In this document: positions 9,849 through 28,954 of the stretch, in pieces
Numbering within the stretch: position 1 is the stretch's first letter
How the letters are laid out: each line of letters begins with the position of its first letter
Source: Salinicola avicenniae
GTDB lineage: Bacteria; Pseudomonadota; Gammaproteobacteria; Pseudomonadales; Halomonadaceae
DNA: 64,000 nt
Reading direction: 5' to 3'
NCBI RefSeq assembly: GCF_023736115.1
Contig: NZ_JAKQZC010000004.1
Location: 310,001-374,000, forward strand
Made by a program: the position numbers and the translations under genes
Notes under the pieces: model-generated
What the model was told of the DNA's origin: nothing
Databases searched by the model: none
Seen by the model: the letters and a program-made list of their open reading frames with translations, nothing else

Positions 9849-10008
9849 GTCGAAAGCCCTTGCGTCGTTATTGTGAGCCCGGATCGCCGTGGCGGGCGCC
9901 CAATCGCCCTGGCGAAGGGAAGGCGCGTGCGCTGATGCGGCCTTCACGAGCGTGCGGCGATTGCCCGGAAGATAACCAGCGCCACGAGAGGTGCCAACGC
10001 TGGACAAT

Positions 10009-10019
10009 TGGTCTGACCA
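10009..10019. promoter_or_regulatory. FadR-subfamily GntR operator (PdhR/LldR/GlcC type)
   Basis: TGGTCTGACCA is a perfect 11-bp palindrome that fits the TGGTnnnACCA core bound by PdhR, LldR, GlcC and relatives. It is flanked by AAT on the left, and a further AGACCAA half-site lies at 10024-10030. It sits in the 390-bp divergent region between the glycolate permease gene and the GST gene, about 160 bp upstream of the permease start. The rest of 9849-10238 shows nothing else I can name. No GntR regulator is encoded in the window. Confidence 0.55.
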
Positions 10020-10238
10020 GATAAGACCAAGGTGGAGACCGGTGGGATAACGAGCTGAGAGGAAAGGCTAATTTGGCAAAGCGAGGGGGGATTGAGGTAC
10101 GGCGTGTCGATCGTTGCTGCGACTAATGGACGGCTAGCCTATGTGCACTCAGGAGGTGGGATTCGTTTGACGTCGAGCACTACGCTTGCACATGCTGCGA
10201 CGACACCCGAAACCTTGATGACATCGGAGAAGAGTGAC

Positions 10239-10949
10239 ATGAGCCGCAAGATGTTCGATCTGTGCGGCCGCGATGAGCGGCTGCGTTTCTCGCCCTACTG
10301 CTGGCGGGTGAAGTACGCGCTGGCGCACAAGGGGCTCGACTGCGATTTCATTCCTTGGAAGTTCACGGACAAGGACGCAATCGCGTTTTCCGGGCAGTCG
10401 AAAGTGCCTGTGCTGGTGGATGGCGACACGACCGTCACCGACAGCTACGAGATCTTTCGCTATCTCGACCGGGTCTATCCCGAGCGGCCTCTGCTGGGCG
10501 GCGATGTCGCCGAGGCGCGGGCACGATTCTTCAAGTTCTACGCCGAGCGCTCGCTGGCGCCGGGCGTGATGCGCACGATTCTGATGGACGTGTTCAACGC
10601 CGTGCATCCCGAGGATCGCGACTACTTCCGTACTTCCCGCGAGAAGGCCTTCGGTCGCACGCTCGAGGAGATGCACTCGCCGAGTCAGGGGCTCTCGATG
10701 CTCGACCGCGCGCTGGAGCCGATGCGCGGGCGTCTGGATGAAGCGCCGTTTCTGGAAGGCGACGCGGCCGGGGCGAGCGACTATCTGGTCATTGGCGTTT
10801 TCCTGTGGGCACGAGTCTGCTCCGCGGCGGATCTCGTCTCCAACGCCGATCCGGTCTACGCCTGGTATCACCGCATGCTCGATCTGCATGGCGGCCTCGG
10901 GCGCAACGCGACGCGCCTCGTCGATATCGACGGTGGTTACGGCGGATGA
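10239..10949 (+). CDS. Glutathione S-transferase-like protein
   Basis: A 236-residue cytosolic GST-fold protein. The N-terminal thioredoxin-like domain (residues about 1-80) contains SPYCWRVKYALAHKG as the expected glutathione-site segment, KVPVLVDGD (cis-Pro) and DSYEIFRYLDR. The rest is the all-helical C-terminal domain. ATG 10239 is preceded by GGAGAAGAG; an upstream ATG at 10218 is less well placed. Reaction and substrate are unknown. The closest general class is the beta-etherase/LigE-like GSTs, a weak guess. It is convergent with the dehydrogenase gene at 10996. Confidence 0.8.
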   Translation: MSRKMFDLCGRDERLRFSPYCWRVKYALAHKGLDCDFIPWKFTDKDAIAFSGQSKVPVLVDGDTTVTDSYEIFRYLDRVYPERPLLGGDVAEARARFFKFYAERSLAPGVMRTILMDVFNAVHPEDRDYFRTSREKAFGRTLEEMHSPSQGLSMLDRALEPMRGRLDEAPFLEGDAAGASDYLVIGVFLWARVCSAADLVSNADPVYAWYHRMLDLHGGLGRNATRLVDIDGGYGG

Positions 10950-10995
10950 TGGCCCGGCCCCGAGCGCCAAGGCGCGTCAATCCGATTGCCGAGAT

Positions 10996-11976
10996 CTAGG
11001 CGCTGGCTGACGTTGGCCGGGCCGCTTCGACAAACTCCCTGACCTGACGAAACGCGGTCGTGAAGTAGCGCTCATAGGTGTCGCGCTCGACGAAACCGAG
11101 ATGCGGCGTCGCGAGCACGCGGGGATGATGCTGATAGGCGCGGGCGCCATCGGGTTCGTTCTCGAAGACATCCAGCGCGGCGCTACCCGGGCGGCCGGCA
11201 TCCAGGGCATCGAGCAGCGCGCCGGGGCGTATCAGCTCGGCGCGACTGGTATTGACCAGCAGCGCATCGGCGCGCATGGAGGCAAGGTCGGCGGCACCGA
11301 TCATGCCGCGTGTCTCGGCGTTGAGCTTGAGGTGTAGCGAGACGATGTCACTGCGCGCCAGAAACGCCTGCCGGTCGGCGATATAGTCGATCTCCTGTTC
11401 GAACGCGCGGCCCGCGCTGGATTCGCGGCCGTGGGCGATGACCTGCATGCCGAAGGCTTTCCCGTAGTCGGCCACCCGAGAGCCGATCTTGCCAAGCCCC
11501 CAGATGCCCAGCGTGCGGCCGCTGAGGGCATGACCCAGCGATTCGGTTTCCAGCCGGTCGGTGCTGCGTTGCCACTCTCCCTGGGACTGTCGTGCTAGAT
11601 AGCTTCCCAGACGTCGACAACCCGCCAGGATCAGCAGCCAGGTCAGCTCCGCCGGCGCCGTGGGCGAGCCGCTGCCGTCGCGGACAGCGATCCCCAGATC
11701 GTCGCACGCCTCAAGATCGATTGCCGAGGACAGTCGTCCGGTCTGCACGATCAATCTGAGCTTGGGGAGCTGCGCCAAAATCTCGCGAGTCAGCGTCGTG
11801 CGCTCGCGAATCAGGATCACCGCATCGCTATCGGCGAGTCGGGCGGGCAGGCTGGCGGCCTCGAGATGATTGTGCTCGACGTCGAGACGGATATCGCTGC
11901 CATCCAATGTGTGCGCGGCATCGAGAAAGGCGCAGCAGCCCTGATAGTCATCCAATACCGTGACCGTGAACGACAT
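10996..11976 (-). CDS. D-2-hydroxyacid dehydrogenase family protein
   Basis: A 326-residue NAD(P)-dependent D-isomer-specific 2-hydroxyacid dehydrogenase. The Rossmann motif GLGKIGSRV lies near residues 152-160. The catalytic triad is visible as Arg in NTSRAEL, Glu in FENEP and His in PHLGF. It interconverts a D-2-hydroxyacid and a 2-oxoacid in the cytoplasm; the substrate is not evident. AGGAGG precedes ATG 11976. The spot near glycolate genes hints at glyoxylate/hydroxypyruvate chemistry, but this is only an inference. Confidence 0.87.
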   Translation of the reverse strand: MSFTVTVLDDYQGCCAFLDAAHTLDGSDIRLDVEHNHLEAASLPARLADSDAVILIRERTTLTREILAQLPKLRLIVQTGRLSSAIDLEACDDLGIAVRDGSGSPTAPAELTWLLILAGCRRLGSYLARQSQGEWQRSTDRLETESLGHALSGRTLGIWGLGKIGSRVADYGKAFGMQVIAHGRESSAGRAFEQEIDYIADRQAFLARSDIVSLHLKLNAETRGMIGAADLASMRADALLVNTSRAELIRPGALLDALDAGRPGSAALDVFENEPDGARAYQHHPRVLATPHLGFVERDTYERYFTTAFRQVREFVEAARPTSASA

Positions 11977-13386: not shown

Positions 13387-14190
13387 CTAATCGTTGCGCT
13401 CCAGGAACTTGCGCACGCGTTCGGTGCTGGGGTTGGTGAAGAAGGTTTCCGGGTCGGCCTTCTCGATGATCAGCCCTTTTTCGAGGAATACGACCTGATC
13501 CGACACGGCGCGCGAGAAGGCCATTTCGTGCGTCACGATGACCATTGTGTAGCCTTCGGCCGAGAGATCCTTGATCACCGCCAGCACTTCGCCGACCAGC
13601 TCCGGATCGAGTGCCGAGGTGGGTTCGTCGAACAGCATCACTTCCGGCTGCATGGCGAGTGCTCGGGCAATCGCGACGCGCTGTTTCTGGCCGCCGGAGA
13701 GCGTGTTGGGATAGGCATCCATCTTGTGCGACATGCCGACTTTCTCGAGCAGTGCGCGGGCATGGGTCTCGGCTTCGTGTTTCGATTTGCCGAGCACGTG
13801 GATCGGCGCTTCGGTCACGTTATGCAGCACGTTGAGGTGCGGCCACAGATTGAAGCCCTGAAATACCATGCCGGTCTTGGCACGTACCCGTGCGAGCGCT
13901 TTCACCGACATGGCGCGGCCCTCGTCGGTCATGCCAATGCGTTCTCCGGCTATGTGGATACTGCCGCGCTCCGGCTGCTCCAGCCAGTTGATGCAGCGCA
14001 ACAGCGTCGATTTGCCGGAGCCCGACGAGCCCAGAATGGTGACGACGTCCCCCTTCTTGACCTCCAGATTGACGTCACGCAGCACCTCGACGTCATCGAA
14101 GCTCTTCGACAAATTGCGGATGGCGACCGCGGTCGCGCCGCTTCGGTCGTTCTCGCGGTGGCCGGCTGTGGACGGGTTGGCATCAGGCAT
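13387..14190 (-). CDS. Amino acid ABC transporter ATP-binding protein
   Basis: A 267-residue ATPase of the polar amino acid (HisP/GlnQ) class, which drives the importer encoded upstream. Walker A GSSGSGKS, Q-loop in FQGFNLWPHLNV, signature LSGGQKQR and Walker B VMLFDEPT are all intact. ATG 14190 overlaps the stop of the permease gene by 8 bp. The frame stays open to 14223 inside the permease gene, but GAGGAT before 14190 favours this start. Last gene of the SBP-permease-permease-ATPase operon. Confidence 0.93.
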   Translation of the reverse strand: MPDANPSTAGHRENDRSGATAVAIRNLSKSFDDVEVLRDVNLEVKKGDVVTILGSSGSGKSTLLRCINWLEQPERGSIHIAGERIGMTDEGRAMSVKALARVRAKTGMVFQGFNLWPHLNVLHNVTEAPIHVLGKSKHEAETHARALLEKVGMSHKMDAYPNTLSGGQKQRVAIARALAMQPEVMLFDEPTSALDPELVGEVLAVIKDLSAEGYTMVIVTHEMAFSRAVSDQVVFLEKGLIIEKADPETFFTNPSTERVRKFLERND

Positions 14191-14848
14191 TGTCGAATCC
14201 TCGCTTGGCGCTGAAGCGCCCACACTGTTTGATGATGACTTCCATGACCACGCTCACGGCCCAGTAGAAGCCGATGACGACGATAAAGGCTTCGGTGGGG
14301 ATGAAGTAGGTTCCCGACAGGCTGTTGGCGGCGGCCGTCAGCTCGCGCACGGTGATGATGACCAGAAAGGCGGTGTCCTTGAGCGCATAGATGAGCTGAT
14401 TGCCCAGCAGTGGCCGGGTCTGCATCACGATCTGCGGCAGGATCAGGCGAAAGAACATCTTGCCCTTGGTGAAGCCGTGCGCCTTGGCGGCTTCGACCTG
14501 CCCGGGCGGGAAGGTGATGCGGCTGCCGCGAAAGATTTCGCCGATATAGCAGCCGTGATAGACCGCCAGCGCACCGACGCCGGCCCACCAGGCATCCAGC
14601 CGGATGCCGAAGCTCGGCAGCCCGTAGTAGAGCAGATAGGCCAGAATCAGGAAGGGCAGCATGCGCATGCCGTCGATGAAGACGCGCAGTGGCACGGTGA
14701 GCCGGGGTCGGCTGCCCTCAAGCAGGTAGAGCAGAGCGCAGCCGATCACGAAGGCGACGCTGATGGAGAGACCGAAGATCTCCATCGTGCGCAGGAAGCC
14801 GACCCAGAACTGATCGCGGGCGCTCCAGAGTATTTCCCAGTTGCTCAT
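14183..14848 (-). CDS. Amino acid ABC transporter permease
   Basis: A 221-residue HisM/GlnP-class inner-membrane permease. The EAA-type loop is visible as QVEAAKAHGFTKGKMFFRLILPQ, the contact point for the ATPase. Five or so transmembrane segments begin with FGLSISVAFVIGCALLYLL. It follows the other permease gene by 21 bp, and its stop overlaps the ATPase start. Confidence 0.92.
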   Translation of the reverse strand: MSNWEILWSARDQFWVGFLRTMEIFGLSISVAFVIGCALLYLLEGSRPRLTVPLRVFIDGMRMLPFLILAYLLYYGLPSFGIRLDAWWAGVGALAVYHGCYIGEIFRGSRITFPPGQVEAAKAHGFTKGKMFFRLILPQIVMQTRPLLGNQLIYALKDTAFLVIITVRELTAAANSLSGTYFIPTEAFIVVIGFYWAVSVVMEVIIKQCGRFSAKRGFDNA

Positions 14849-14869: not shown

Positions 14870-15511
14870 CTAGACGGCCAGCCGATTGGCTTGCCGTTCG
14901 GCGATTCGCTGCAGCCAGACGAGGCAGCCGATCACGGCCATGTAGAGCACGCAGGCGACGAGAATCGGCGGCAACGGCTCGTAGGTCACGGCGGAAATGC
15001 GATTGGTCACCCGGGTCAGGTCGACGATGCCGATGACGGCAATGGCCGGGCTACCCTTGATCAGGAAAGACATTTCGTTGATCAGGCCGGGCAGACTGGT
15101 GATCACCATCTGCGGCAACATGATGCGCCGAAAGGTGATCCACGGCGTCATGCCGGCAGCCATCGCCGCTTCGCGCTGATCGCGGGAGAAGTTGCGAAAG
15201 GCGCTGCGCCAGATTTCGGCGTTGAAGGCGGTGGTGTTGAGCGTCAGCGCCAGGATCCCGGCGACATTGCGATCGAGATTGATGCCAAACGTCGGTGCGC
15301 TGAGAAAGATGAACAGGGTCAGCGTCACCAGTGGCGTGGCGCGGGCCAGACTGGTGTAGAGCACCAGGATCTGGTCGACGACGGGAATCTTGGCGATTCG
15401 AATCAGGGCGATGATCAGTCCGGCGACCACGCCCAGCGCGATGGAGATGCCTGAAATCCAGACGGTCGTCCACGCGCCTTCCAGCAGCATTTGCCAGGCA
15501 CTGGCGTTCAT
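14870..15511 (-). CDS. Amino acid ABC transporter permease
   Basis: A 213-residue partner permease of the same class. Its EAA loop is QREAAMAAGMTPWITFRRIM (residues about 131-150). The membrane segments start with AWTTVWISGISIALGVVAGL. It comes after a 92-bp gap from the binding-protein gene; that gap contains a strong stem-loop, which suggests unequal expression of the binding protein and the membrane parts. Confidence 0.92.
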   Translation of the reverse strand: MNASAWQMLLEGAWTTVWISGISIALGVVAGLIIALIRIAKIPVVDQILVLYTSLARATPLVTLTLFIFLSAPTFGINLDRNVAGILALTLNTTAFNAEIWRSAFRNFSRDQREAAMAAGMTPWITFRRIMLPQMVITSLPGLINEMSFLIKGSPAIAVIGIVDLTRVTNRISAVTYEPLPPILVACVLYMAVIGCLVWLQRIAERQANRLAV

Positions 15512-15603: not shown

Positions 15604-16497
15604 TCACATGTTGCTGAACTGCAGCTCGTGGAACTGATCGACGCTGGTCAGCGGTTCGGTCGGCAGGTCCGGGAAGGCCTCGCCGAACCACTTCTCCTGC
15701 AGCTCGGCCAGCTTGCCGCTTTCGCGCATCTCGTCGAGGAAGCCGTTCATGTAATCGAGCAGTTCCGGGCTGCCCTTGGGGATCGGCCAGGAGACGTAGC
15801 CCGGGCCGGAAACCGCAGGGCCCTTGGCGAAGACGTCCGGCTTGGAGGCCACTAGCGTGTTGGCCGGGACGGCGGAATCGATGACGAAGTCCAGGCGGCC
15901 GTTGGCCAGATCGGCAAAGGCTTCCGGATAGGACTCGTACTGGACGACTTCGCCCATTTCTTCACCCTGCTCGCTGAGCATCTTCTCCAGCTCCGGCAGG
16001 CGCGAAAGCAGTACGCTGCCCGCCTGCACGCCGACGGTCTTGCCGCCGAGGTCGGCGACGTCGCTGATGCTGTCGTCGTCGGCGCGTTTGATCGCGAAGT
16101 GCTGTGCGGAGGCGTAGGGCGCGGTGTAGTTGAACACGCGCAGGCGCTCGTCGGAGACGGAAGCGCCGGTGAGCGCCATGTCGTACTGGCCGGTGGACAC
16201 TGCGGCGAGCAGGCCGGTCCAGGGCAGGATCTCCTGACGCACCTCGAAGTCGGCGTAGTCTCGGAGTTCTTCCAGCATCTCGGCGTTGAAGCCGACGGCA
16301 TTGCCGTCTTCGATGTAGTTGAACGGCGAGTAGTTGTCTTCGGTCGCGACGCTTAGATAGCCGCGGCTCTCGACCTCGGAGAGATCGGCGGCGACGCTCG
16401 ACAGCGAGAACGATAGCAGCGTGCCGGCGACGGCGGCCGCGATCAGCTTCGAGAAACGACGAGAGTGCGAAGTGCTACGGGTTGTCAAACGCATCAT
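15604..16497 (-). CDS. Amino acid ABC transporter substrate-binding protein
   Basis: A 297-residue periplasmic binding protein of family 3 (SBP_bac_3). The Sec signal peptide (about residues 1-37, ending SLSSVAA) is followed by GYLSVATEDNYSPFNYIEDG and VGFNAEMLEEL, the usual start of lobe 1, and later WTGLLAAVSTGQYDMALTG. Residues around YDMAL and SGPGYVSWP would line the ligand site. Ligand unknown; this family takes polar amino acids, opines or compatible-solute-like amines. AAGGGTG precedes the start. First gene of the four-gene operon. Confidence 0.9.
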   Translation of the reverse strand: MMRLTTRSTSHSRRFSKLIAAAVAGTLLSFSLSSVAADLSEVESRGYLSVATEDNYSPFNYIEDGNAVGFNAEMLEELRDYADFEVRQEILPWTGLLAAVSTGQYDMALTGASVSDERLRVFNYTAPYASAQHFAIKRADDDSISDVADLGGKTVGVQAGSVLLSRLPELEKMLSEQGEEMGEVVQYESYPEAFADLANGRLDFVIDSAVPANTLVASKPDVFAKGPAVSGPGYVSWPIPKGSPELLDYMNGFLDEMRESGKLAELQEKWFGEAFPDLPTEPLTSVDQFHELQFSNM

Positions 16498-16862: not shown

Positions 16863-16900
16863 GCCATCAGCGTGTCGAAAGGTCGCCATCAGCGTGTCGA
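16863..16900. repeat. 16-bp direct repeat covering the end of the COG0523 GTPase gene
   Basis: The 16-mer GCCATCAGCGTGTCGA occurs at 16863-16878 and again at 16885-16900, 22 bp apart. The second copy contains the last codons and stop of the minus-strand GTPase gene, so the gene end has been duplicated just downstream. Confidence 0.8.
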
Positions 16901-17833
16901 GAGCGCCTCGAGTGCCGCGATCAGCGCCTCGTAGGTGGCGCCGGCGAAGCCGATGCCGACCAGCTGGCCACTGCCCGGGCGCGGGGTGCTCGGGGTCCAG
17001 TCGGCCTTGTCACCGCTCCACTGGAAGACGTAGTGGCGGCCATCCGCCTGCAGAAAGCCCTTGGCGCGGGCCAGACCGTCCGCATGGGCGGTCAGCAGCG
17101 CGTCGAGTTCCTGGCGCTGCAGGGTGGCGGGCAGGGTGATGGCGAAGCGCTGCCATGCCGGGTCTTGCTCGGCCGGGCGATAGACCGGCCTGGCGGGCGG
17201 TTGGGGCGTCGAGATCTGGCGGTCATCGCGGGTCGTGCCCGCCTCGCGATCGGGGTTGAATGGCGCTGTCCAGAAACGGCTGGCGTCGGGATTGAGAGCG
17301 GCAAGGCGTTCTTGCAGCTGCCGCTGCGCCGAGTCGTCGAGGGCGTCGCCACGGTTGCAAAAGAGCTCGTTGGCGGCGGTGATCTGCGCCGCGACCAGGT
17401 CGCCGACACGGCGGTCGGCGAGGCGTGTTGCCAGCGAGGCGAGGTCGACCAGGGTGACAATCCGCGCGAGATGATACTGCCGGGCGACGCGGATCAGGTC
17501 GGCGATACGCGTCGGTCTGGCCACGCCGCTGGTCTCGATCAGCACGTGGCTCGGCGGCTCGGGCCAGCGGGCGATGCGCGACAGCTGCGTGCCCAGCTCG
17601 TCGCTGAGCGAGCAGCACAGGCAGCCGCTGCTCAGCTTGAGCAGGCGGTCGCCCTTGTAGTCGATCAGCTCGGCGTCGACGTTGATGGCGCCGAAGTCGT
17701 TGACCAGTAGCAACGTGCCTGGCGCCACGCCGTCGCGCAGGTGCGCGTTGAGCCAGGTGGTCTTGCCGGCGCCGAGATAGCCTGCGATCAGGGTGACGGC
17801 GATCGTCTCGGCCGTGGATGACGCCTCAGTCAT
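16889..17833 (-). CDS. COG0523 (CobW/YjiA/ZigA class) GTPase, putative metallochaperone
   Basis: A 314-residue G3E-family GTPase. Walker A GYLGAGKTT spans residues 18-26 and the metal-binding CxCC motif (GCLCCS) has C71, C73 and C74. A C-terminal CobW_C-type domain follows. Family members load Zn, Co or other metals into client proteins using GTP. ATG 17833 overlaps the amidohydrolase stop by 8 bp, so the GTPase is translationally coupled to a metal-dependent hydrolase. The hydrolase is the obvious candidate client (inference). No Zur-box was recognised upstream of the operon, and the His-rich stretch of some zinc chaperones is absent. Confidence 0.85.
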   Translation of the reverse strand: MTEASSTAETIAVTLIAGYLGAGKTTWLNAHLRDGVAPGTLLLVNDFGAINVDAELIDYKGDRLLKLSSGCLCCSLSDELGTQLSRIARWPEPPSHVLIETSGVARPTRIADLIRVARQYHLARIVTLVDLASLATRLADRRVGDLVAAQITAANELFCNRGDALDDSAQRQLQERLAALNPDASRFWTAPFNPDREAGTTRDDRQISTPQPPARPVYRPAEQDPAWQRFAITLPATLQRQELDALLTAHADGLARAKGFLQADGRHYVFQWSGDKADWTPSTPRPGSGQLVGIGFAGATYEALIAALEALSTR

Positions 17834-19454
17834 TGGCGAAGAGGCGACCGCCCACCATCGTCGCGACGACGCCGATCTCGGGCAGCCGGTCCAGCGACAC
17901 CTCGCGCGGGTCCTCGTCGAGGATCGCCATGTCGGCGAACTTGCCCACCTCGAGGCTGCCGATGCGGTCATCGAGCCTGAGCGTGTAGGCCGCATCCAGC
18001 GTGATCAGCTTCAGCGCGCGCTCGACGCTGAGTGCCTCCAGCGGGCCGAGGACCTCGCCGCTGGCGGTGCGCCGTGCGACGGCACACCAGGCGGTGAACA
18101 GCGGTGCCAGCGGCGTGACCGGGGCATCGCAGTGGGCCGCGATGGGAATGCCGAGACGGTCCGCCGAGGCCAGCGGTTCGAGTCGCTGGCTGCGTTCGTG
18201 GCCGAGCGTGCGCTGGCGGTGGATGTCGCCCCAGTAGTAGAGGTGGTTGGCGAACATGTTGAGGCAGACGCCGAGGCGCGCGGCGCGCTTCATCTGCGCC
18301 TGGTTGATGATCTGGCAGTGCTGCAGGGTGTGGCGATGATCCGGCCGTGGCCACAGTTCCAGCGCCGATTCGATGGCGTCGAGCATCAGATCGACCGCTT
18401 CGTCGCCGTTGGTGTGGATATGCAGCTGCAAGCCGGCCTGGTGATAGCGCTGGACGATCTCGGTCAGCCGCTCCGGCTCGGCGTTCCACATGCCGTTGGG
18501 GGTGCCGTCATGATAGCCGGGCCAGTTGAGCCGGGCGGTATAGCCCTGGATCGAGCCATCGGTCATCAGCTTGACCAGCCCGAAGTGCAGCTTGTCACTG
18601 GCATGGACCTTTGCGTCCAGCAGCCGTTCGATGCCGTCGTCCGGCGTGTAGGTGAGCGCGCTCATGGCCGGCGCGAGACGCATCGGCACGTCGTCGCGAT
18701 TGCAGGTGTCGCGCATGTTGGCGACGCCGGTATCGCTCAGCGGATTGTAGAGATCGGTCAGCGTGGTAACGCCATGACGTTGGGCGATCCGCGCATAGCG
18801 CTCGAGCGTAGCGGGCTCGCTGCCGCGATCGAAGAGGTCGATATTCAGGTTGTCGAAGATGGCGAACATCGCCGCCATCTCGCGCAACTCGCCGTTGGGT
18901 CGGCCATCCTCGAAGGTCATCACGCCCTCGATATCCGCCTGTGTCTCGAGGCCGGCGCGCGACAGCATGGCGCTGTTGACGGTCATCATGTGCAGGTTGG
19001 CATGGAGGATGACGATCGGCCGCTCGCGATCGACGCCATCGAGCTCCTCGCGGGTCAGGCGACGGGTCGGGAAGTAGATCGGGTCGAAGCCCCAGGCGAT
19101 CAACGGCTCGCCAGCGGGCAGCGACGCGGCCTGGGCGCTCAGGTGGCGCTGCAGTGCATCGATATCGGTCAGGCCCGGCCAGGTCTCGCCGGTGGGGTCG
19201 GTGCGCGAGAAGTAGCCAGCATAGGCGTACTCCCAGAGCACGCCCTCCAGCGCATGGCTGTGGCCTTCGACGAAGCCGGGCAGGATCACCTTGTCGGCAA
19301 AGCGCTCGTCGAGTTCGTAGTCGCCCAGATCGGCCAGTGTCTCCAGCGAGCCCACGCCAAGGATCCTGCCATCGCGGACGGCGACGTGGGTCGCCTCCGG
19401 TTGCGACGGGTTCATCGTCAGAATGCGGCGGGCGACATAGATGCGGTGGCTCAT
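17826..19454 (-). CDS. YtcJ-like metal-dependent amidohydrolase
   Basis: A 542-residue amidohydrolase_3 (YtcJ/N-substituted formamide deformylase-like) enzyme with a TIM-barrel. The HxH metal motif (GHSHALEG) is at H65/H67, with further ligand candidates in LHIHTNGDEAVD and in HCDAPVTP. No signal peptide, so cytoplasmic. Substrate unknown; the upstream dicarboxylate/glutamate-type carrier suggests an N-acyl or amide compound carrying a carboxylate. Its ATG overlaps the carrier stop by 4 bp (ATGA), and its own stop overlaps the GTPase start by 8 bp. Confidence 0.85.
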   Translation of the reverse strand: MSHRIYVARRILTMNPSQPEATHVAVRDGRILGVGSLETLADLGDYELDERFADKVILPGFVEGHSHALEGVLWEYAYAGYFSRTDPTGETWPGLTDIDALQRHLSAQAASLPAGEPLIAWGFDPIYFPTRRLTREELDGVDRERPIVILHANLHMMTVNSAMLSRAGLETQADIEGVMTFEDGRPNGELREMAAMFAIFDNLNIDLFDRGSEPATLERYARIAQRHGVTTLTDLYNPLSDTGVANMRDTCNRDDVPMRLAPAMSALTYTPDDGIERLLDAKVHASDKLHFGLVKLMTDGSIQGYTARLNWPGYHDGTPNGMWNAEPERLTEIVQRYHQAGLQLHIHTNGDEAVDLMLDAIESALELWPRPDHRHTLQHCQIINQAQMKRAARLGVCLNMFANHLYYWGDIHRQRTLGHERSQRLEPLASADRLGIPIAAHCDAPVTPLAPLFTAWCAVARRTASGEVLGPLEALSVERALKLITLDAAYTLRLDDRIGSLEVGKFADMAILDEDPREVSLDRLPEIGVVATMVGGRLFAND

Positions 19455-20854
19455 GACGGATTCGGCTCCTGCAGTGAGGCATTCGAGGCGCCCCGGCTAC
19501 GCTGCCACTTCAGCAGCAGCGGTACGCAGACCAGCATCAGCAGGAAGTAGCCGCCGAAGATAGCCAGATACTGCCAGGCGCTCAGGGTCGGCGCGATCGG
19601 CGCGATGAAGAACAGCGTCGGGATGTTGACCACGATAATCGCGATATTGAAGAACGCCAGCTCCTTGGGCACCGAGGTGCTGAAGTCCGCGTCCAGCATG
19701 CGCAGCAGCAGCAGGCCGGTACCGGTGGAGCCGCAGCAGCAGCCGAAGGCGGTGACCGAGCGCTCGGGGCCAAGCCGCCCGCTGAGACGGCCGATGGCCA
19801 TGGCACCGAGGAACGTGACCAGGGTCACGGCAACGGTGACGATCGCGATCGGCACCAGCAGAGCGGCCAGCACGGCGATCTGGATGCTCATCAGCGTGGC
19901 GACGACCATGAAGTCGACCGAGCCGCTGGTGATGCGCTTCAGGGTATCGTCGTCGACCTTGTCGGCCCAGCCGCAGCGGTCGATCACCAGGCGCATCAGC
20001 ACGCAGACCGTCAGGCCGTGGATGAAGAACAGGTTGTAGCTGAAGAAGACCGTCAGCACCTGATTGCCCTCGACCAGCGGCTGCATCACGGTAAGCCAGA
20101 CGTAGGTGATGACATAGGCCAGGCCGAGCAGGCCGAGATGCCAGGCGAGCGAGTCGACGGTGCCCGAGTGTGATACCTGCTTGCCTGCCGAGGGGCGGGA
20201 CGTCGGCTTGTGGAAGCCGGCGATGAAGTCGTCGTCCAGGGTCGATTCGCGATTGGCGTTCATGCCGCGCTTGAGGAAATAGCGCGCGGCGGGCACGCCG
20301 ACGACGAAGGCGGCGACAAAGCCGAGCGAGGCGAAGATGACACCCACCTGCGCCGCGTTGGCGATACCGTAGTCGTTCTCCCAGATGGTGCCGTAGGTCA
20401 GCGCCTGACCAGGCCCCTGGGTAAAGCCGTGGGTCACGATGGCGCCGAGCAGCGGGCTCAGGTCGCTGCCGCTGAGCAGGTCGTAGCCTGCCATCAGGGC
20501 ATAGCCGATCACCGCCTGGGCGCCGAGGCTGGCGGTCCAGATCAGCGTCAGCCACAGCCCGCCGCCGAGAATGCCCTGCTTGGCCTCGCCGGCAGCGGGT
20601 TTGGGGCTACCGGTCAGACACAGCGACATGAAGCTCAGCGTGAAGAAGTGGAAAGCCAAGGGGGTGAAATCCGACGGTCCATACCCGGGGATCCAGCCCA
20701 GCGAGAGCAGCGCGAAGCCGATGACGCCGGCCACGATGCTGCCGGGAATCAAGCTGGCGCGCAGAAAGCCGAGGCGGCTGCGCAGCAGGCTGCCGATGAC
20801 CAGCAGGCCGGCCAGCAGCGCAAAGGCGATCACGCCATGAAAGGTGCTGCCCAT
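19451..20854 (-). CDS. GltS-like (ESS family) sodium:carboxylate symporter
   Basis: A 467-residue inner-membrane carrier with about 10-12 helices in two halves. Each half has a glycine-rich re-entrant-like loop: VTHGFTQGPGQALTYG (near residue 145) and GCCCGSTGTGLLLLRML (near 365). This internal symmetry is typical of the GltS (glutamate:Na+ symporter) superfamily. It is longer than GltS (about 400 residues) and diverged, so glutamate should not be assumed. First gene of the carrier/amidohydrolase/GTPase operon. The run of three cysteines in the second loop is unusual. Confidence 0.75.
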   Translation of the reverse strand: MGSTFHGVIAFALLAGLLVIGSLLRSRLGFLRASLIPGSIVAGVIGFALLSLGWIPGYGPSDFTPLAFHFFTLSFMSLCLTGSPKPAAGEAKQGILGGGLWLTLIWTASLGAQAVIGYALMAGYDLLSGSDLSPLLGAIVTHGFTQGPGQALTYGTIWENDYGIANAAQVGVIFASLGFVAAFVVGVPAARYFLKRGMNANRESTLDDDFIAGFHKPTSRPSAGKQVSHSGTVDSLAWHLGLLGLAYVITYVWLTVMQPLVEGNQVLTVFFSYNLFFIHGLTVCVLMRLVIDRCGWADKVDDDTLKRITSGSVDFMVVATLMSIQIAVLAALLVPIAIVTVAVTLVTFLGAMAIGRLSGRLGPERSVTAFGCCCGSTGTGLLLLRMLDADFSTSVPKELAFFNIAIIVVNIPTLFFIAPIAPTLSAWQYLAIFGGYFLLMLVCVPLLLKWQRSRGASNASLQEPNPS

Positions 20855-21363
20855 GATGTGTAGTCCTCGTAATTGACGTTGTTGTCGGCGATGGCGTCAT
20901 GCCCGGCATTGGCATTGTGGTCTTGGGCTGACGCGCGGCAATCGGTTTTCGGGACCCGAGGCTCGATCGACTCTGGCATCGATGCGGGTCTCGTTGTCGG
21001 TGTTGTCGGTACTGTTATTAGGCACTGTCCGATTAGGTACTGTCCGGGGCGTCGTTGTGGGCACTGTCCTGAGCATTGCCCTGGGCGTCGGCCCAGGTCT
21101 GGCCCCGCTCAGGCTCTGGCCTGTCGGCCTGGCTGTCATGGCCGACGTGCCACCTCCAGTCGAGATGGCAATCATACTAAAGTTAGAGATACAGACCTCT
21201 ATAGGACAGATCGCGTGCACCGCCGGGACAGTTGTTTGCCGTGCAAACGATCCAACGGCGTGGGCTCCATGGGTGAAAAGGGGTGGCGGCAGTGAAATCC
21301 ACGGACGAATGGCGTGAATCTTGCAAGGATGGGGCATGCAGAGAATTGCTGTGGGAGTGCACC
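20855..21363. other. Divergent intergenic region, GltS-like carrier / MocR regulator
   Basis: Half a kilobase without a supported gene; open frames here look like noise. It holds degenerate GGCACTGTCC repeats (best pair 21017-21046) and an inverted repeat TAGAG-N8-CTCTA (21184-21188, 21197-21201) in an AT-richer patch that could serve the regulator promoter or autoregulation. Confidence 0.45.
21017..21046. repeat. 15-bp tandem duplication
   Basis: ATTAGGCACTGTCCG (21017-21031) is followed directly by ATTAGGTACTGTCCG (21032-21046), one mismatch. A further GGGCACTGTCC-like copy occurs near 21059-21069. Confidence 0.8.
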
Positions 21364-22824
21364 ATGCTCGATCATCATTTTCATCTCGACTTCGATGCGC
21401 CGCGCGGTCTGCAGGAGCAACTGCGCGAGGCGCTGCTGGCGGCGATCCACACCGGCACGATCCCGGTGGACGAAGCTTTGCCTTCCTGCCGCAAGCTGTC
21501 GCTGCAGCTTGGCGTGTCGCGCAATACCGTGGCGCTGGTCTACGAGGGACTGGTCGAGGATGGCTATCTGGTCAGTCGTCCGCGCAGCGGTTACTACCTG
21601 CATGATGCCTATCATGGCGCCGATGCACTAGAAACGCCGGTATCGATGCGCGACGAGGTTGTCGATGCACCACTATGGGGCAATCGCTTTACGCATCGTC
21701 CCAGCCACCTGCAGGGCGTCCTGCGCCCCAGCAACTGGATGCACTACGAGTTTCCGTTCGTCTATGGCCAGCTCGATACGCGGCTGTTCCCGCTGGAGCA
21801 GTGGCGCGAGTCCTCGCGTCAGCTTCTGGGCGGGCGCCGTGACCGCCACTGGCTGGGTGACCGCTATGACCAGGACGATCCGATGCTGATCGAGCAGCTG
21901 CGCACACGCGTGCTGCCCAAACGAGGGATCCATGCGCGCAGCGACGAGATCCTGATCACGCTGGGGTCGCAGAATGCGCTATTCCTGATCGCGCAGTTGC
22001 TGTTCGACGCCCGTACCCGCGTCGCGGTGGAGAATCCCGGCTATCGCGAGGCGGCCAATGTCTTCCTGCGCCAGGGCGCGCAGCTGAGCTATCAGGCGAT
22101 CGATGCGGAGGGCATGTGTCTGGATGCGGGCGCCACCGGTAGCGACTATCTCTACGTGACGCCCAGCCATCAGGGGCCGACCGGTGTCACCATGAGCCAG
22201 GCCCGGCGCGAGGCGCTGATCGAGCAGATCCAGCAGCGCGATCAGATCGTGCTGGAGGACGACTACGATGCGGAGGTCAACTTCGACCGCCACGCCTTGC
22301 CGGCGCTCAAGGCAAGCCGCGCCGGCTCGCGCGTGATCTACATGAGCAGCCTGTCCAAACCGCTGTCGCCGGGTCTCCGGCTCGGCTATCTCGTGGCCGA
22401 TGCCGAGCTGATCGACGAGCTGCGGGCGCTACGACGACTGATGTATCGCCATCCGCCTTCCAGCCTGCAGCAGCAGGTGGCCCAGTTTCTGTCTCAGGGA
22501 CATTACGATCGCTATCTGCGGCTGTTCGCCGAGGAGATGTCTCGACGCTGGGAGGCGATGGACACCAGCCTGCGTCGCGAGCTGCCGATGTGTCGCCGTG
22601 TCGGCGGCGATCATGCCAGCGTGTTCTGGCTGGAGGCGCCGGAAACGGTCGATACCCAGCGGCTGGCGTGGCAGGCGGCGCAGCACGGGGTGCTGATCGA
22701 GCCCGGCTTCCAGCACTTCTTCGATCGCGTGCCGCCACGCAATTTCATGCGCCTCGGCTTCGGCGCGATCGACGTGGAGCGGATCGGCCCGGGCATCGAG
22801 CGTCTGGCACGCGCCTTCGGCTGA
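21364..22824 (+). CDS. tauR: MocR-family regulator (GntR wHTH + aminotransferase domain), TauR-like
   Basis: A 486-residue MocR/GabR-type regulator. The GntR winged helix (residues about 10-80, with LPSCRKLSLQLGVSRNTVALVYEGLVEDGY) is joined to a fold-type I aminotransferase domain, with PLP lysine expected in SSLSKPLSPGLRLGYL and EDDYDAE as the Asp partner segment. GGGAG lies before ATG 21364. In the Chromohalobacter salexigens taurine cluster a regulator sits next to tpa, isfE and isfD; the same neighbourhood here makes taurine response likely. The symbol is by context; domain assignment is certain, ligand is not. Confidence 0.82.
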   Translation: MLDHHFHLDFDAPRGLQEQLREALLAAIHTGTIPVDEALPSCRKLSLQLGVSRNTVALVYEGLVEDGYLVSRPRSGYYLHDAYHGADALETPVSMRDEVVDAPLWGNRFTHRPSHLQGVLRPSNWMHYEFPFVYGQLDTRLFPLEQWRESSRQLLGGRRDRHWLGDRYDQDDPMLIEQLRTRVLPKRGIHARSDEILITLGSQNALFLIAQLLFDARTRVAVENPGYREAANVFLRQGAQLSYQAIDAEGMCLDAGATGSDYLYVTPSHQGPTGVTMSQARREALIEQIQQRDQIVLEDDYDAEVNFDRHALPALKASRAGSRVIYMSSLSKPLSPGLRLGYLVADAELIDELRALRRLMYRHPPSSLQQQVAQFLSQGHYDRYLRLFAEEMSRRWEAMDTSLRRELPMCRRVGGDHASVFWLEAPETVDTQRLAWQAAQHGVLIEPGFQHFFDRVPPRNFMRLGFGAIDVERIGPGIERLARAFG

Positions 22825-22954: not shown

Positions 22955-24262
22955 TCAGCGGTAGGCGCCGAGCACCTCGTCGAGAATCGACAGGCCCTGT
23001 TCGACTTCCGCTTCGCTGATGATGCAGGGCGGCACCACGTGGATACGGTTCTCGACCACGAACGGCAACAGGCCCTTGTCGACCATCGCGCCCTTGATCT
23101 TTGCCATCTCCGCAGGCGGCAGCGGGGCACGAGTCTCGCGATCGCTGACTAGTTCGAGCGCATGGAAAACGCCGACGCCACGGGTTTCACCGATCACGGC
23201 ATGCTTGTCGGCAAGCTTTCTGAGGCCGCTGGCGAGCACGCCATTACCCACACGATCGGCATTTTCGACCACGCCCTCTTCTTGCATCGCGTCCAGCGTG
23301 GCCACGATCGCGGCCATGGCCAGCGGGTGGCCGGAGTAGGTGAGGCCGCCGTAGAACATGTTGTCGTCGAAGTGGCGGCAGATGGCCTCGGAGACCACCA
23401 CGCCACCGGCCGGTACATAGCCCGAGTTGACACCCTTGGCGAAGACGATCAGATCCGGTTTGACGTTGAAGTGCTCGAATGCGAACCAGCGGCCGGTGCG
23501 GCCGAAACCGGCCATGACTTCGTCGAGAATCAACAGGATGCCGTACTGATCGGCCAGCTTACGTACGCCTTCCATATAGCCCTTGGGCGGAATCAGCATA
23601 CCGGCGGTCCCGGGGATCGACTCGAGCAGGATCGCGGCGATCGACTGCGGCCCCTCGCACTCGATGACCCGCTTCAGATGTTGCAGGGCACGCTCGCACT
23701 CTTCGGCTTCGTTGCCCGCCCAGAACTCGGTTCGGTAGAGGTACGGATTGAAGAAGTGCGCGTGGCCGCGCGAGAACTCGTTGGGAATACGACGCGGGTC
23801 GCCGGTCGCGGCGATCGCGGCGCCGGTATTGCCATGGTAGGAGCGATAGGCGGAGAGAATCTTGTCGCGCCCGGTCATGCTGCGGGCCATGCGGATGGCA
23901 TTCTCGTTGGCGTCGGCGCCGGCGTTGGTGAAGAACACCTTGCTGAAACCGGCAGGCGCGCGCGCCAGGATGCGCTTGGCCGCTTCGCTGCGCGCGAGGT
24001 TGGCATGCGCCGGCGCTACGGTGGCCAGCTGCTCGGCCTGGGCCTGGATCGCGGCGACGACTTTCGGGTGCTGATGGCCGATGTTGGTGTTGACCAGCTG
24101 GCTGCTGAAGTCGAGATACTCCTTGCCGTCGTAGTCCCACATCTTGCAGCCACGGCCGCCGGCGATGACCAACGGATTGAGGTTGCCCTGTGCCGACCAG
24201 GAGTGGAAGACATGCTGGCGGTCGAGCTGACGGACGAAGTCGTTGGTCATGCTGTCGTTCAT
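22955..24262 (-). CDS. tpa: Class III aminotransferase, probable taurine:pyruvate aminotransferase
   Basis: A 435-residue PLP enzyme of the omega-amino acid:pyruvate class. D247 (LILDEVMAGFGRTGRW) and the Schiff-base lysine K276 (VFAKGVNSGYVPAGG) are in the expected places. In the taurine pathway it converts taurine and pyruvate to sulfoacetaldehyde and alanine. The substrate call relies on the neighbouring exporter and sulfoacetaldehyde reductase-like SDR; the sequence alone would also allow beta-alanine or other omega-amines. ATG 24262 has AGGA upstream. The frame stays open a further 58 codons over repetitive DNA that is unlikely to be translated. Confidence 0.78.
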   Translation of the reverse strand: MNDSMTNDFVRQLDRQHVFHSWSAQGNLNPLVIAGGRGCKMWDYDGKEYLDFSSQLVNTNIGHQHPKVVAAIQAQAEQLATVAPAHANLARSEAAKRILARAPAGFSKVFFTNAGADANENAIRMARSMTGRDKILSAYRSYHGNTGAAIAATGDPRRIPNEFSRGHAHFFNPYLYRTEFWAGNEAEECERALQHLKRVIECEGPQSIAAILLESIPGTAGMLIPPKGYMEGVRKLADQYGILLILDEVMAGFGRTGRWFAFEHFNVKPDLIVFAKGVNSGYVPAGGVVVSEAICRHFDDNMFYGGLTYSGHPLAMAAIVATLDAMQEEGVVENADRVGNGVLASGLRKLADKHAVIGETRGVGVFHALELVSDRETRAPLPPAEMAKIKGAMVDKGLLPFVVENRIHVVPPCIISEAEVEQGLSILDEVLGAYR

Positions 24263-24280
24263 GGCAGGAGTCCTGTTGTT

Positions 24281-24344
24281 GTGGAGCCGGTGTGGAGCCG
24301 GTGTTATGGAAACGGAGTGGTGGAGCCGATGTCGTGGAACCGGG
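24281..24344. repeat. 11-bp tandem/interspersed repeat (GTGGAGCCGGT)
   Basis: GTGGAGCCGGT is exactly duplicated at 24281-24291 and 24292-24302. Variant copies lie at 24320-24330 (GTGGAGCCGAT) and 24334-24344 (GTGGAACCGGG). It begins 19 bp upstream of the tpa-like start codon. Confidence 0.8.
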
Positions 24345-24555
24345 GCCGGCGCCGATACTGAAACCCGTACGGCGACACCGGCCGACGTGCCGGAAAGCGG
24401 CCCGTGCGTCGGGTCGGGTGCGATCCTCCCTGGCATCGGGCGGTCGATCGCGAATGAAATCAGAGTAGGGGGCCGGCGGGCGTTCGCGTAGAGCCAGAAT
24501 CGATTGTCTCTCGTGACAGCGGGGGATGCGGTGTCAGCGTCGGTCGGTTGGTGGC

Positions 24556-26404: not shown

Positions 26405-28954
26405 TCAGTCGGTGGTCTCTTCCGGCAGGGCGTAGGCAATCACATAGTCGCCGGTCGGTGTCTCCATGAAGTGGTGGCCGGTGGCGACGATCACCACGTA
26501 TTGGCGTCCATCCGCTTCATAGACCATCGGGTTGGCCTGGCCGCCAGCGGGCAGCGGTGCCTGCCACACGGTTTCGCCGCTCTCAATGTCGATGGCGCGG
26601 ATCAGGTCGTCGGTGGCTGCGGCAATGAAGATCAGACCACCGGCGGTGACGGCGGAGCCGCCGTTGTTGGGCGTGCCGATGTCGATCGGCAGGCCGGAAC
26701 GGATGCCCCAGGGCCCGTTGGCGCGCGCGGTACCGAGTGGGCGATCCCACAGCGTATCGCCGCTGGCCAGATCGATGGCGCGGATGTGACCGTACGGCGG
26801 CTGCTTGCAGAGCAGCCCGGTGTAGGGCACACGCCAGCCGGCGTTGACGTTGATCGCGTAGGGCGTGTTGGCCTGCGGATCGCCGGCACCTTCGGCGCCG
26901 CCGCTATCCTGCTCGAGCTCCTCACGCGGCACCCAGCCACGCTCGTTGGCGACATCGCGCGGCACGAACTCGTTGTAGTTGGGCATGTCGTTGTAGTTGG
27001 CGATCATGACGCCGCGTTTGGGATCGATCGCCACGCTGCCCCAGTCGGAGCCGCCGTTGTAGCCAGTGTACTGGACCCATGGCTGCTCGGCGGTCGGCGG
27101 CGTGTACATGCCTTCCCAGCTGGCCTGGCGATACTGGATACGGCAGAACAGCTGATCGAAGGGTGTCATGCCCCACATGTCCTTCTCGTCGATATCCGGC
27201 TGGCGCAGGGTGGCGTAGTTCGAGAACGGCTGTGTTTCGCTACGCTGCTCCGGTTCGGCCCCTCCCTGCGGCACCGCGCGCTCTTCGGCGCCGCCGCCCA
27301 AGAGCTCGCCGGTTTCGCGATTGAAGACGTAGATCTCGCCCTGCTTGGTCGGCATCACTAGCGCCGGTACCTTGCCGTCTCCGGTGGGGAAGTCGATCAG
27401 CGTCGGCTGCGAGCCCGGGTCGTAGTCCCAGACGTCCTTGTGCGCGGTCTGGAAGTGCCACTTTGGCAAGCCGGTTTCGACATCGAGCGCGATCATCGAG
27501 CTGGCCCACTCGTTCTCTTCCGGCGTGCGCGAGCTGCTCCAGTAATCCGCCGCGCTGTTGGCCATCGGCAGGTAGACGAGCCCCAGCTTGCTGTCGCCGG
27601 CGGCGGTCGTCCACATGTTGGGCGAGCCGCGAACATAGGTCTCGTCGCCGGTCAGTGGCTCGCTGCGATCCGGACGGCCGGCATCCCAGGCCCACAGCAG
27701 TTCGCCGGTTTCGACGTCGTAGCCCTTGATCACGCCGGAAGGCGGATAGCGACGCTGGCCATCGAGTACCTGGTGGCCAGTCACCAGCACGCCACGTACC
27801 ACGACAGGGGCGGAGTTGATGGAGACGTAGCCCGGCGGCGTCTCGCCCATGTTGCGCTTGATATCGACCTGGCCATTGTCGCCGAAGCCGGTGCAGGGCT
27901 CGCCGGTCATGGCATCGACCTCGACCAGGCGGCCGTCGAGCGTCCCGGAGATGATGCGCGCCTGGCAGTTCTGATCGCGGTTGGTGGCAACGTCGGTCGC
28001 CTCGGCAGCTGAAGTATCGTTCTGCTGATCGTTGCTCTCGGTCGTGTCGCTGTTGGCGACCTCCATGCTGGCGTCGTCGGCCGAGGAGGCGTCGCCGTCG
28101 TCGGCGGTTTCCGGTACCTCGTAGTAGGTCACGCCGCGGCAGGCCGCGGTGTAGGGAACCGCGTCTTCGGAGACCTGCGGGTCGTAGCGCCAGTTCTCTT
28201 CGCCGGTGGCGGCATCCAGAGAGATCAGGATATTGCGTGATGTGCAGAGGAAGACGTTATCGCCGATCTTGAGCGGCGTGGTCTCCGCGCCCCAGCGGTG
28301 ATCGAGCAGGTCGCCGGTGCGGTATTGCCAAGCCACTTCCAGGTTCTCGACGTTATCCGGTGTGATCTGCTCGATCGGCGAGTAACGCGTGGCCGCCGAA
28401 TCACGCCCGTAGGCGCTCCAGTCGCCGTCAGCCGGGACGTCGGCCGGTTGCGCATCGCCGACGTCGGTCGACAGCGAACGGTCGGCGACCGCGGGCACCG
28501 GATCGAACTGCTGGTAGCCGCGTCCCGGCAGGAAGGCCAGCGCGCCTGCAACCACCAGGCCGAGGAAAAGGACACCGGCAGTGGCGAATCCGGCCTTGCG
28601 CGAGGGGCCTCCGGCGAGCGCCGGTGAGACCAGCGCGACCAGAATCGCAAGGATCAACATGACATCGAGACGCGGGATCCAGCGCCAGTAATTGAGCCCT
28701 GACTCCCAGGCGCTCCACAGGAAGGTGCCGATAAAGACGATGGCGAAAATCCACAGTCCGGAAGGCTTGCCGCGCAGTAATTGAATGCCGGACAGCAGTG
28801 TCAAAACGCCGGCGATCAGGTAGTACCAGGAGCCGCCAAGCACGGCTAGATAGACGCCGCCGGCTGCCAGTATCAGGCCAATCAGCGTGAGTAGGATGCC
28901 GACAATCCTGGCCAGCAGTTGCCCGCCGCCGCCGGCGGATAAAGATGAGGCCAC
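26405..28954 (-). CDS. gcd: Membrane-bound PQQ-dependent glucose dehydrogenase
   Basis: An 849-residue quinoprotein. Five N-terminal membrane helices (about 15-38, 42-60, 66-83, 98-113, 122-143) anchor a periplasmic PQQ beta-propeller that oxidises aldoses to lactones and passes electrons to ubiquinone. PQQ-repeat segments such as DAATGEENWRYD, YDVETGELLWAWD and IDIESGETVWQAPLP are visible. GTG 28954 is preferred since AAGGGAGA lies just upstream; ATG 28990 would add 12 residues. An acidic, Asp/Ser/Thr/Asn-rich insert at about residues 283-327 interrupts the propeller, an unusual feature perhaps linked to salt. No PQQ synthesis genes are in the window. Confidence 0.92.
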   Translation of the reverse strand: MASSLSAGGGGQLLARIVGILLTLIGLILAAGGVYLAVLGGSWYYLIAGVLTLLSGIQLLRGKPSGLWIFAIVFIGTFLWSAWESGLNYWRWIPRLDVMLILAILVALVSPALAGGPSRKAGFATAGVLFLGLVVAGALAFLPGRGYQQFDPVPAVADRSLSTDVGDAQPADVPADGDWSAYGRDSAATRYSPIEQITPDNVENLEVAWQYRTGDLLDHRWGAETTPLKIGDNVFLCTSRNILISLDAATGEENWRYDPQVSEDAVPYTAACRGVTYYEVPETADDGDASSADDASMEVANSDTTESNDQQNDTSAAEATDVATNRDQNCQARIISGTLDGRLVEVDAMTGEPCTGFGDNGQVDIKRNMGETPPGYVSINSAPVVVRGVLVTGHQVLDGQRRYPPSGVIKGYDVETGELLWAWDAGRPDRSEPLTGDETYVRGSPNMWTTAAGDSKLGLVYLPMANSAADYWSSSRTPEENEWASSMIALDVETGLPKWHFQTAHKDVWDYDPGSQPTLIDFPTGDGKVPALVMPTKQGEIYVFNRETGELLGGGAEERAVPQGGAEPEQRSETQPFSNYATLRQPDIDEKDMWGMTPFDQLFCRIQYRQASWEGMYTPPTAEQPWVQYTGYNGGSDWGSVAIDPKRGVMIANYNDMPNYNEFVPRDVANERGWVPREELEQDSGGAEGAGDPQANTPYAINVNAGWRVPYTGLLCKQPPYGHIRAIDLASGDTLWDRPLGTARANGPWGIRSGLPIDIGTPNNGGSAVTAGGLIFIAAATDDLIRAIDIESGETVWQAPLPAGGQANPMVYEADGRQYVVIVATGHHFMETPTGDYVIAYALPEETTD

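Follow-up and report, generated by a model that had tools for sequence, protein, structure and literature searches.

Genes for the use of N-acetyltaurine are listed for Ruegeria pomeroyi in PMC4334477, where SPO0657 (naaT, "Metallochaperone, putative") and SPO0658 (naaS, "N-acetyltaurine amidohydrolase") stand beside SPO0659 (naaR, LysR) and SPO0660-0664 (naaA, B, B', C, and C'), with tpa and tauABC a few genes away. Judging from this gene order and from the names, naaS would be a COG1574 gene and naaT a COG0523 gene. A 2011 paper by Denger et al. is said to describe experiments on the N-acetyltaurine pathway in Cupriavidus necator H16. Either naaS, naaT, or the transporter serves as a marker of N-acetyltaurine use (PMC9870897, PMC8027193, and PMC4809877), and naaT has been termed a catabolic metallochaperone gene (PMC4809877). 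The same two families recur among TauR regulons as listed in PMC5320631: "COG523- and COG1574-family proteins" appear with gabP and oppABCDF in Comamonadaceae, and with tauE, oppABCDF, and tripartite ATP-independent periplasmic (TRAP) transporters in TauR2 regulons, while gammaproteobacterial TauR regulons hold tauABC, tpa, and an amino-acid ATP-binding cassette (ABC) transporter. Here, we analyzed a three-gene operon encoding a GltS-like carrier, a YtcJ-class amidohydrolase, and a COG0523-type GTPase in a 64,000-nucleotide stretch of Salinicola avicenniae (contig NZ_JAKQZC010000004.1, positions 310,001 to 374,000). This whole stretch is called the window, and coordinates refer to it unless another locus is named. 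The trio is a genuine, widely conserved bacterial operon, and its core pair, the hydrolase and the GTPase, is already known as naaST; a first-pass annotation of the window had named no described system with this carrier and a YtcJ-class enzyme, and this claim of novelty therefore falls to the naaST genes (PMC4334477) and the TauR-regulon listing (PMC5320631). On balance, we favor the reading that the operon is a NaaST-type unit for the utilization of taurine amides with dedicated metal loading, and we consider it probable.

All three genes lie on the reverse strand. The first operon gene encodes the GltS-like carrier of the ESS family (Glt_symporter; 19451..20854, 467 aa), and the next encodes the NaaS-like, YtcJ/COG1574-class metal-dependent amidohydrolase (17826..19454, 542 aa). 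The gene for the NaaT-like, COG0523/CobW-type GTPase (16889..17833, 314 aa) follows directly, so that a COG1574 gene is succeeded at once by a COG0523 gene, as in NaaST. The carrier end and the hydrolase start overlap by 4 bp (shared ATGA), and the hydrolase end and the GTPase start overlap by 8 bp (shared ATGACTGA); the coordinates and both overlaps agree with those of the first-pass annotation. The GTPase starts with the ATG at 17833, and its reading frame stays open up to 17995. Two copies of GCCATCAGCGTGTCGA, spaced 22 bp apart, lie at 16863-16900, just before the GTPase gene's end and across it.

A carrier scan of named genomes yielded 106 confirmed loci, the best 80 of which were used for counts; the hydrolase and GTPase were scored as present at a carrier locus by tblastn matches of over 60 bits on the fetched stretch. 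The order and strand carrier-hydrolase-GTPase were kept in 46 of these 80 loci, from Salinicola, Chromohalobacter, Kushneria, Halomonas, Billgrantia, Pseudomonas, Marinobacterium, Pontibacterium, Oceanimonas, Zobellella, Thauera, Paenalcaligenes, and beta- and alphaproteobacterial metagenome-assembled genomes (MAGs); many of the 46 come from close kin of the window, 19 having a carrier of at least 79% identity. The other 34 carrier loci include one truncated at a contig end (L065), one without a GTPase (L076), and one in which the pair lies apart and on the opposite strand (L081). For 31 of these 46 trios, the estimated offset from carrier to hydrolase is -4 bp. In pairs, the Walker A codons of the GTPase begin 20 to 83 bp past the hydrolase stop, with exceptions at L056 (333 bp), L125 and L145 (124 bp), L024 and L133 (212 bp), and L134 (214 bp), in the distant pairs L213 (185 bp) and L214 (248 bp), and at L046, where the hydrolase frame is broken. 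This last locus, from Halomonas olivaria, has the hydrolase split over frames at 9401-11024 and the carrier and GTPase open, a picture of either decay or sequencing errors. Gene maps of some loci come from our own choice of open reading frames (ORFs), not from a gene caller.

The hydrolase was also followed through three draws of 97, 369, and 398 genomes, and PF02492 genes were looked up wherever its match reached at least 45% identity (16 genomes). A COG0523 gene lay directly downstream on the same strand in 15 of the 16, the exception being G687 (45%). Nine YtcJ relatives at 30 to 34% identity had no motif-bearing GTPase frame within 1.2 kb. Across the genome draws and the carrier loci, hydrolases at 44% identity or more had the GTPase, bar L076 and the contig-cut L065, and those at 43% or less were without it; a sharp identity limit was nevertheless rejected as a general rule, because on plasmid records the GTPase adjoins hydrolases of 34 to 36% identity in Mesorhizobium, Cupriavidus, and Persicobacter (the last by coordinates only). 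The first-pass annotation had proposed a neighborhood survey and had named scattering of the homologs as grounds for abandoning its idea; in these counts of trio and pair, the genes stay neighbors in other genomes. The genomes of the window's genus and the named Salinicola genomes of the carrier scan overlap, and the two sets are not independent. One genome of this genus (G001) holds, beyond the cassette, two further hydrolase-GTPase pairs (L131 and L134, at 58% and 56%); in L134, the partner GTPase was called as two pieces at about 10132-10635, possibly owing to a frame break.

The hydrolase matched Pfam Amidohydro_3 with 245.2 bits (cut-off 29.7), and the metal ligands of the YtcJ/Amidohydro_3 type (HxH, Lys, His, His, and Asp on a TIM-barrel fold) were all found. 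Residues H65, H67, K295, H347, H379, D443, and H155 were invariant in 55 of 55 aligned rows, and the protein is probably a dinuclear zinc-type amidohydrolase. Its AlphaFold2 model (mean predicted local distance difference test score [pLDDT], 96.0) found as its best PDB match 3igh (Z 34.5, 3.8 Å over 466 residues) and as its second 3icj (Z 33.7), both of them uncharacterized Pyrococcus hydrolases; the many lower-scoring deaminases and hydrolases named by Foldseek with VIA-align did not indicate a substrate. R308, nearly constant in the pair-rich hydrolase group (43 of 44 rows) and seen in 1 of 11 other rows, is a candidate binder of the substrate anion. A metal-dependent amidohydrolase with YtcJ-family matches, MetalloBSH, cleaves taurine-conjugated bile salts (PMC13081902).

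For the GTPase, matches to Pfam cobW (115.4 bits; cut-off 20.7) and CobW_C (32.0 bits; cut-off 22) were clear, and scores were far under the equivalog cut-offs of CobW, ZigA, and PRK11537 (YjiA-type). Its motifs include Walker A (GYLGAGKTT), GCLCC, and LIETSG, and of the features that define COG0523 (G3E) proteins it has Walker A, GCxCC, the Walker B Glu, and the C-terminal domain; the G4 motif is NRGD, not the intact NKxD given as a mark of the G3E family by Haas et al. (PMC2770081). YjiA was the best PDB match of its model (mean pLDDT, 86.5). Arg replaces the NKxD Lys in all 48 partner GTPases whose hydrolase is at least 56% identical to that of the window, and the Asp is kept in 13 of these 48, the window GTPase among them; the Lys is found in 15 of 16 other partner GTPases and in 27 of 29 other COG0523 rows (42 of 45 together). 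A Lys-to-Arg change in NKxD is expected, from work on Ras, to weaken nucleotide binding. Despite this departure, the window GTPase, which derives from COG0523, probably works like a COG0523 protein. In a tree of 82 rows, 27 of the 29 non-partner COG0523 rows formed one supported clade apart from the partners, and the remaining two (L163 and L190) sat on a long branch. The row set counted duplicates over the first 120 residues once and omitted frames under 180 aa, giving 93 rows, 11 of which were removed before the tree as near duplicates; L046 was relabeled by hand as a partner in the tree and the motif count, since its hydrolase is split by frame breaks. A cobalamin-type CobW or a nitrile hydratase activator was set aside as an identity for the GTPase, its score being far under the CobW cut-off; nitrile hydratase and cobN were not searched for.

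Five loci of Halomonas/Billgrantia, three of Pseudomonas, and Caballeronia have CobS/CobT-like genes in the vicinity of the cassette. These form an AAA+/VWA pair no more than about 7 kb away (L055, L062, L053, L056, L057, L060, L067, L072, and L199), in three lineages with three arrangements. The CobT-like gene was the only CobT match at an E value of ≤1e-20 in the eight named genomes searched, scoring 242 to 273 bits against a cut-off of 759, and the pair may be a second part of metal insertion. A bolder extension of these observations is that the COG0523 clade with NR in place of NKxD, each member tied to one amidohydrolase, has lost the usual motif for guanine recognition (the Asp, too, being often absent) and inserts metal as an NTPase whose use of nucleotides is relaxed or changed, to which some lineages add the CobS/CobT-like pair, all in the service of a taurine-amide pathway in which a GltS-like carrier has replaced the importer; as a whole, we regard this as speculative and doubtful.

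The carrier matched Glt_symporter with 65.1 bits (cut-off 26) and the gltS equivalog TIGR00210 with 46.1 bits, far under its cut-off of 310.75, which leaves glutamate uptake unsupported; a PDB search with the carrier gave no relatives at an E value of ≤1. Its Cys triplet lies in FGCCCGSTG (residues 370 to 378). C372 and C373 were kept in 46 of 46 aligned carriers, and C374 in 36, with Thr in the other 10; the motif FGCC[CT]G[ST]TG occurs throughout the carrier family, including at loci without a nearby hydrolase. The triplet singled out as unusual in the first-pass annotation thus exists, but as a trait of the carrier family, and it was rejected as a special mark of the operon. Analogy with GltS suggests that it sits in a re-entrant loop. 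Uptake genes differ from pair to pair, and the carrier is only one kind: Dpp/Opp-type ABC, TRAP, or SSF uptake genes lie near related pairs.

Taurine genes stand beside part of the related pairs. On the plasmid of Caballeronia NK8, the pair is found together with xsc, pta, and NTF2-like and flavin adenine dinucleotide (FAD) oxidoreductase genes, and in Sinorhizobium and Shinella the NTF2-FAD gene pair lies between tauABC and xsc-pta (order tauABC-NTF2-FAD-xsc-pta), a position that identifies it as TauXY. We take these two genes to be TauX and TauY. TauXY is a taurine dehydrogenase that feeds Xsc (PMC5320631); a PDB search with the TauY-like protein gave zero relatives at an E value of ≤1e-10. 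Of 74 distinct stretches that carry the hydrolase-GTPase pair (86 stretches minus 12 short duplicates, L116-L119, L121-L127, and L129), 12 have homologs of both TauX and TauY close to it, among them stretches from Halomonas, Billgrantia, Thauera, Caballeronia, Variovorax, and Cupriavidus, and L130 likewise has Xsc and Pta in the vicinity of the pair. In Burkholderia multivorans, the GTPase is followed by a TauD-like dioxygenase and a taurine-type ATPase, neither of which reached its cut-off. A MocR protein 44% identical to that of the window adjoins xsc in L208. At L214 (2554-7978; Cupriavidus sp. P-10), a distant pair (35%) adjoins TauXY-like genes and a cupin, the same theme in a second lineage. 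Three annotated Paracoccus plasmid loci and L145 (by ORF map) match the R. pomeroyi naa order, and a LysR gene stands beside many sister cassettes. Outside the window's genus, whose genomes were omitted from these comparisons, Xsc was found in 4 of 7 pair genomes versus 22 of 389 others, 4 of 4 versus 17 of 364, and 2 of 4 versus 5 of 75 in the three draws, counts that rest on partly overlapping draws and related genomes, so that their p values are indicative only; in the class draw (4 of 4), three of the four genomes belong to a single genus, and one of the matches, a fragment, stays under the cut-off.

Upstream of the operon in the window, and divergent from it, lies a TauR-like regulator of the MocR family (GntR plus aminotransferase fold, by family-profile matches; 21283..22824, forward strand), the true start of which is possibly downstream of the annotated GTG. 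No other protein of its genome matches the MocR next to the Shinella tau operon as well (325 bits, the next reaching 155), and in eight Halomonas/Billgrantia loci the cassette adjoins a relative 44 to 46% identical to it. A direct repeat with a 22-bp period, CTGTC-N17-CTGTCC, lies at 21204..21231 on the reverse strand, between the promoters of the carrier and of MocR, which diverge; this pattern has a single exact match in the 64 kb (0.05 expected). A repeat with the same 28-bp span precedes the carrier in all 19 close-group loci, the second box being CTGGCC in 4 of them, and is probably an operator. The loci concerned are L036-L052, L077, and L080, and the repeat is kept in L045 and L046, where MocR is not adjacent. 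With a looser pattern, the window yields five matches; the one at 21040-21069, on the forward strand and spanning 30 bp, also falls in this intergenic region. Convergent with the MocR gene is a class III aminotransferase (22955..24436, reverse strand; PRK06062, 743.6 bits against a cut-off of 472), whose nearest solved structure is the taurine:2-oxoglutarate aminotransferase 6jix (387.5 bits versus 250.5 for the next) and whose start is probably internal, as matches begin at about residue 60. Downstream of the operon, also on the reverse strand, are genes of an amino-acid ABC transporter: a family 3 solute-binding protein (15604..16497, by Pfam), and, by profile matches and locus comparison, two permeases (14870..15511 and 14183..14848) and an ATPase (13387..14223). 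The gene for the solute-binding protein neighbors the operon in the close group and was not seen in L036, L045, and L046. Farther away, at 26405-28990, lies a membrane-bound pyrroloquinoline quinone-dependent dehydrogenase of the glucose/quinate/shikimate type (TIGR03074, 955 bits), unrelated as far as could be seen.

In the NaaST-type reading, the GltS-like carrier would import an N-acyltaurine, most likely N-acetyltaurine, which the YtcJ-class enzyme would split into the acid and taurine; the COG0523 protein would load or guard the metal site of this one hydrolase, the TauR-like MocR, encoded from the same intergenic region, would control the operon through the direct-repeat operator, and the nearby aminotransferase could take the amino group off taurine. 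The first-pass annotation had likewise joined uptake, hydrolysis, and metal loading in a single unit, a view that the conserved neighborhood supports, even if the system is not an undescribed one; the substrate, which it left unknown, now has a taurine amide as its best candidate. Several observations weigh against this reading. Uptake is by the GltS-like carrier where naaST has naaABB'CC', and the regulator is a MocR where naaST has the LysR naaR; the published TauR site, CTGGACYTAA, has neither an exact site nor a close pair in the window. The window hydrolase is 48 to 52% identical to the Burkholderia and Paracoccus copies and about 50% identical to those of naa-like loci, and in a quick tree (four rows removed; L212 on a very long branch that may disturb placement) its clade lies next to that of loci with naa-like order, the NaaS of R. 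pomeroyi and of C. necator not being among the rows. Within the window's genus, Xsc was found at an E value of ≤1e-150 in none of 18 genomes, 16 of which have the hydrolase, and TauY matches stayed at or below 34% identity across the full length, with 37% in a single stretch of 127 residues, compared with 56 to 66% for copies beside pairs; in the window's close group, neither TauXY nor Xsc lies on the stretch of any of the 19 loci. Taurine would therefore serve here at most as a nitrogen source or be used by an unknown route, and use as a nitrogen source only is the simplest idea for this genus.

The missing Xsc also speaks for an alternative in which the same machinery acts on another substrate, an N-acyl amino acid or other omega-amino compound (for example, an N-acyl derivative of beta-alanine, gamma-aminobutyrate [GABA], homotaurine, or one of the common amino acids). 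The nearby taurine genes would then reflect no more than the handling of similar amines by related regulators and enzymes. M20 N-acyl-amino-acid amidohydrolases lie near the pair in six loci (L132-L135, L071, and L079; TIGR01891 in L071, the others by cluster), accompanied in L132-L134 by an SSF symporter; a PRK09061-like deacylase (under its cut-off) is near some pairs, and a piperidine-6-carboxylate dehydrogenase (over its cut-off) is in L079. Such neighbors, which also count against a taurine amide at the window, suggest other substrates in part of the family, and so do a serine-pyruvate-type aminotransferase in a Pseudomonas locus and, in loci of Pseudomonas and Caballeronia, genes that resemble GABA permease but fall short of the cut-off. 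Because TauXY, Xsc-Pta, and TauD-like genes recur in several lineages, Xsc is enriched with the pair, and naaS is published for the same gene order (PMC4334477), we think another substrate possible but rather unlikely. A different doubt concerns the GTPase, which might be merely co-expressed with the hydrolase, serving the wider zinc or cobalt economy or acting as a metal-binding partner that is no GTPase. The altered NKxD motif would fit this, as would the hydrolase of Vibrio comitans (L076), which occurs with the carrier and with no GTPase match on the 17-kb stretch and is one more observation at odds with the NaaST-type reading; COG0523 proteins elsewhere take part in general zinc homeostasis (PMC2770081), and the bile-salt enzyme of the same superfamily was metallated when made in Escherichia coli, with no dedicated chaperone mentioned in the sections of PMC13081902 considered. 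The GTPase adjoins the hydrolase across three proteobacterial classes, with frames overlapping or nearly touching, and forms its own tree group in which CXCC, Walker A, and the Walker B Glu are kept; we hold this alternative role unlikely. Least credible to us is that the carrier is a symporter for glutamate or dicarboxylates that has no link to the hydrolase substrate and is kept for another reason. It does belong to the ESS/Glt_symporter family, and in 31 of the 80 carrier loci, some being short contigs, the hydrolase is absent from the fetched stretch, a further point against our preferred reading in that the carrier is not tied to the hydrolase; the few genes viewed around these carrier relatives, none of them library-scanned, held nothing toward taurine, and some of the MAG loci are mutually syntenic. 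Its gltS equivalog score is low, however, its gene overlap is kept across Halomonadaceae, Pseudomonas, Oceanimonas, Thauera, and Alcaligenaceae, and other pairs have their SSF, ABC, or TRAP uptake genes close by.

If the operon is a NaaST-type taurine-amide unit, some halophilic Halomonadaceae would use taurine amides, and a branch of the ESS carrier family would gain a candidate function. Many COG0523 proteins are without an identified client, and here genome context across three proteobacterial classes suggests one; the likely reaction is a simple, assayable hydrolysis with two products, which makes metal delivery by a COG0523 protein to a single enzyme directly testable, with hydrolases with and without an adjacent chaperone, and chaperones with NKxD and with NR, as natural controls.

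A literature search over titles and the starts of abstracts did not find this operon, and the link emerged through taurine; a GltS-like carrier with naaST was likewise absent from the listings and passages considered. Compared with the COG0523 metallochaperones (YjiA, CobW, YciC/ZigA, and the nitrile hydratase activator), the window GTPase shares Walker A, GCxCC, the Walker B Glu, and CobW_C, whereas the partner GTPases have their own tree group and the window's clade has an altered NKxD. The carrier shares its Pfam family with GltS, the sodium/glutamate symporter of the ESS family, and differs in falling far under the gltS equivalog cut-off. MetalloBSH (PMC13081902) and the YtcJ-family enzymes 3icj and 3igh have the same kinds of ligand, the carbonyl-polarizing His, and the fold of the window hydrolase; unlike the latter, MetalloBSH is secreted and has an additional C-terminal domain, and no metallochaperone partner is described for it in the sections of that paper considered. 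The TauR and TauR2 regulons of PMC5320631 place the same two families in a MocR-controlled taurine regulon, and a related aminotransferase and amino-acid ABC transporter also flank the window operon; oppABCDF, gabP, or TRAP genes are listed with the pair there, and a GltS-like carrier is not mentioned in the part of that listing considered. With naaST itself, the window shares an amidohydrolase gene with a putative metallochaperone gene, beside a regulator and an uptake system, and it differs in the Arg of the partner GTPase's NKxD motif and in the lack of xsc in its genus. Set against these known systems, what looks new is the GltS-like carrier for uptake, the clade of GTPases with Arg for Lys in NKxD, the conserved repeat with a 22-bp period, and the CobS/CobT-like neighbors.

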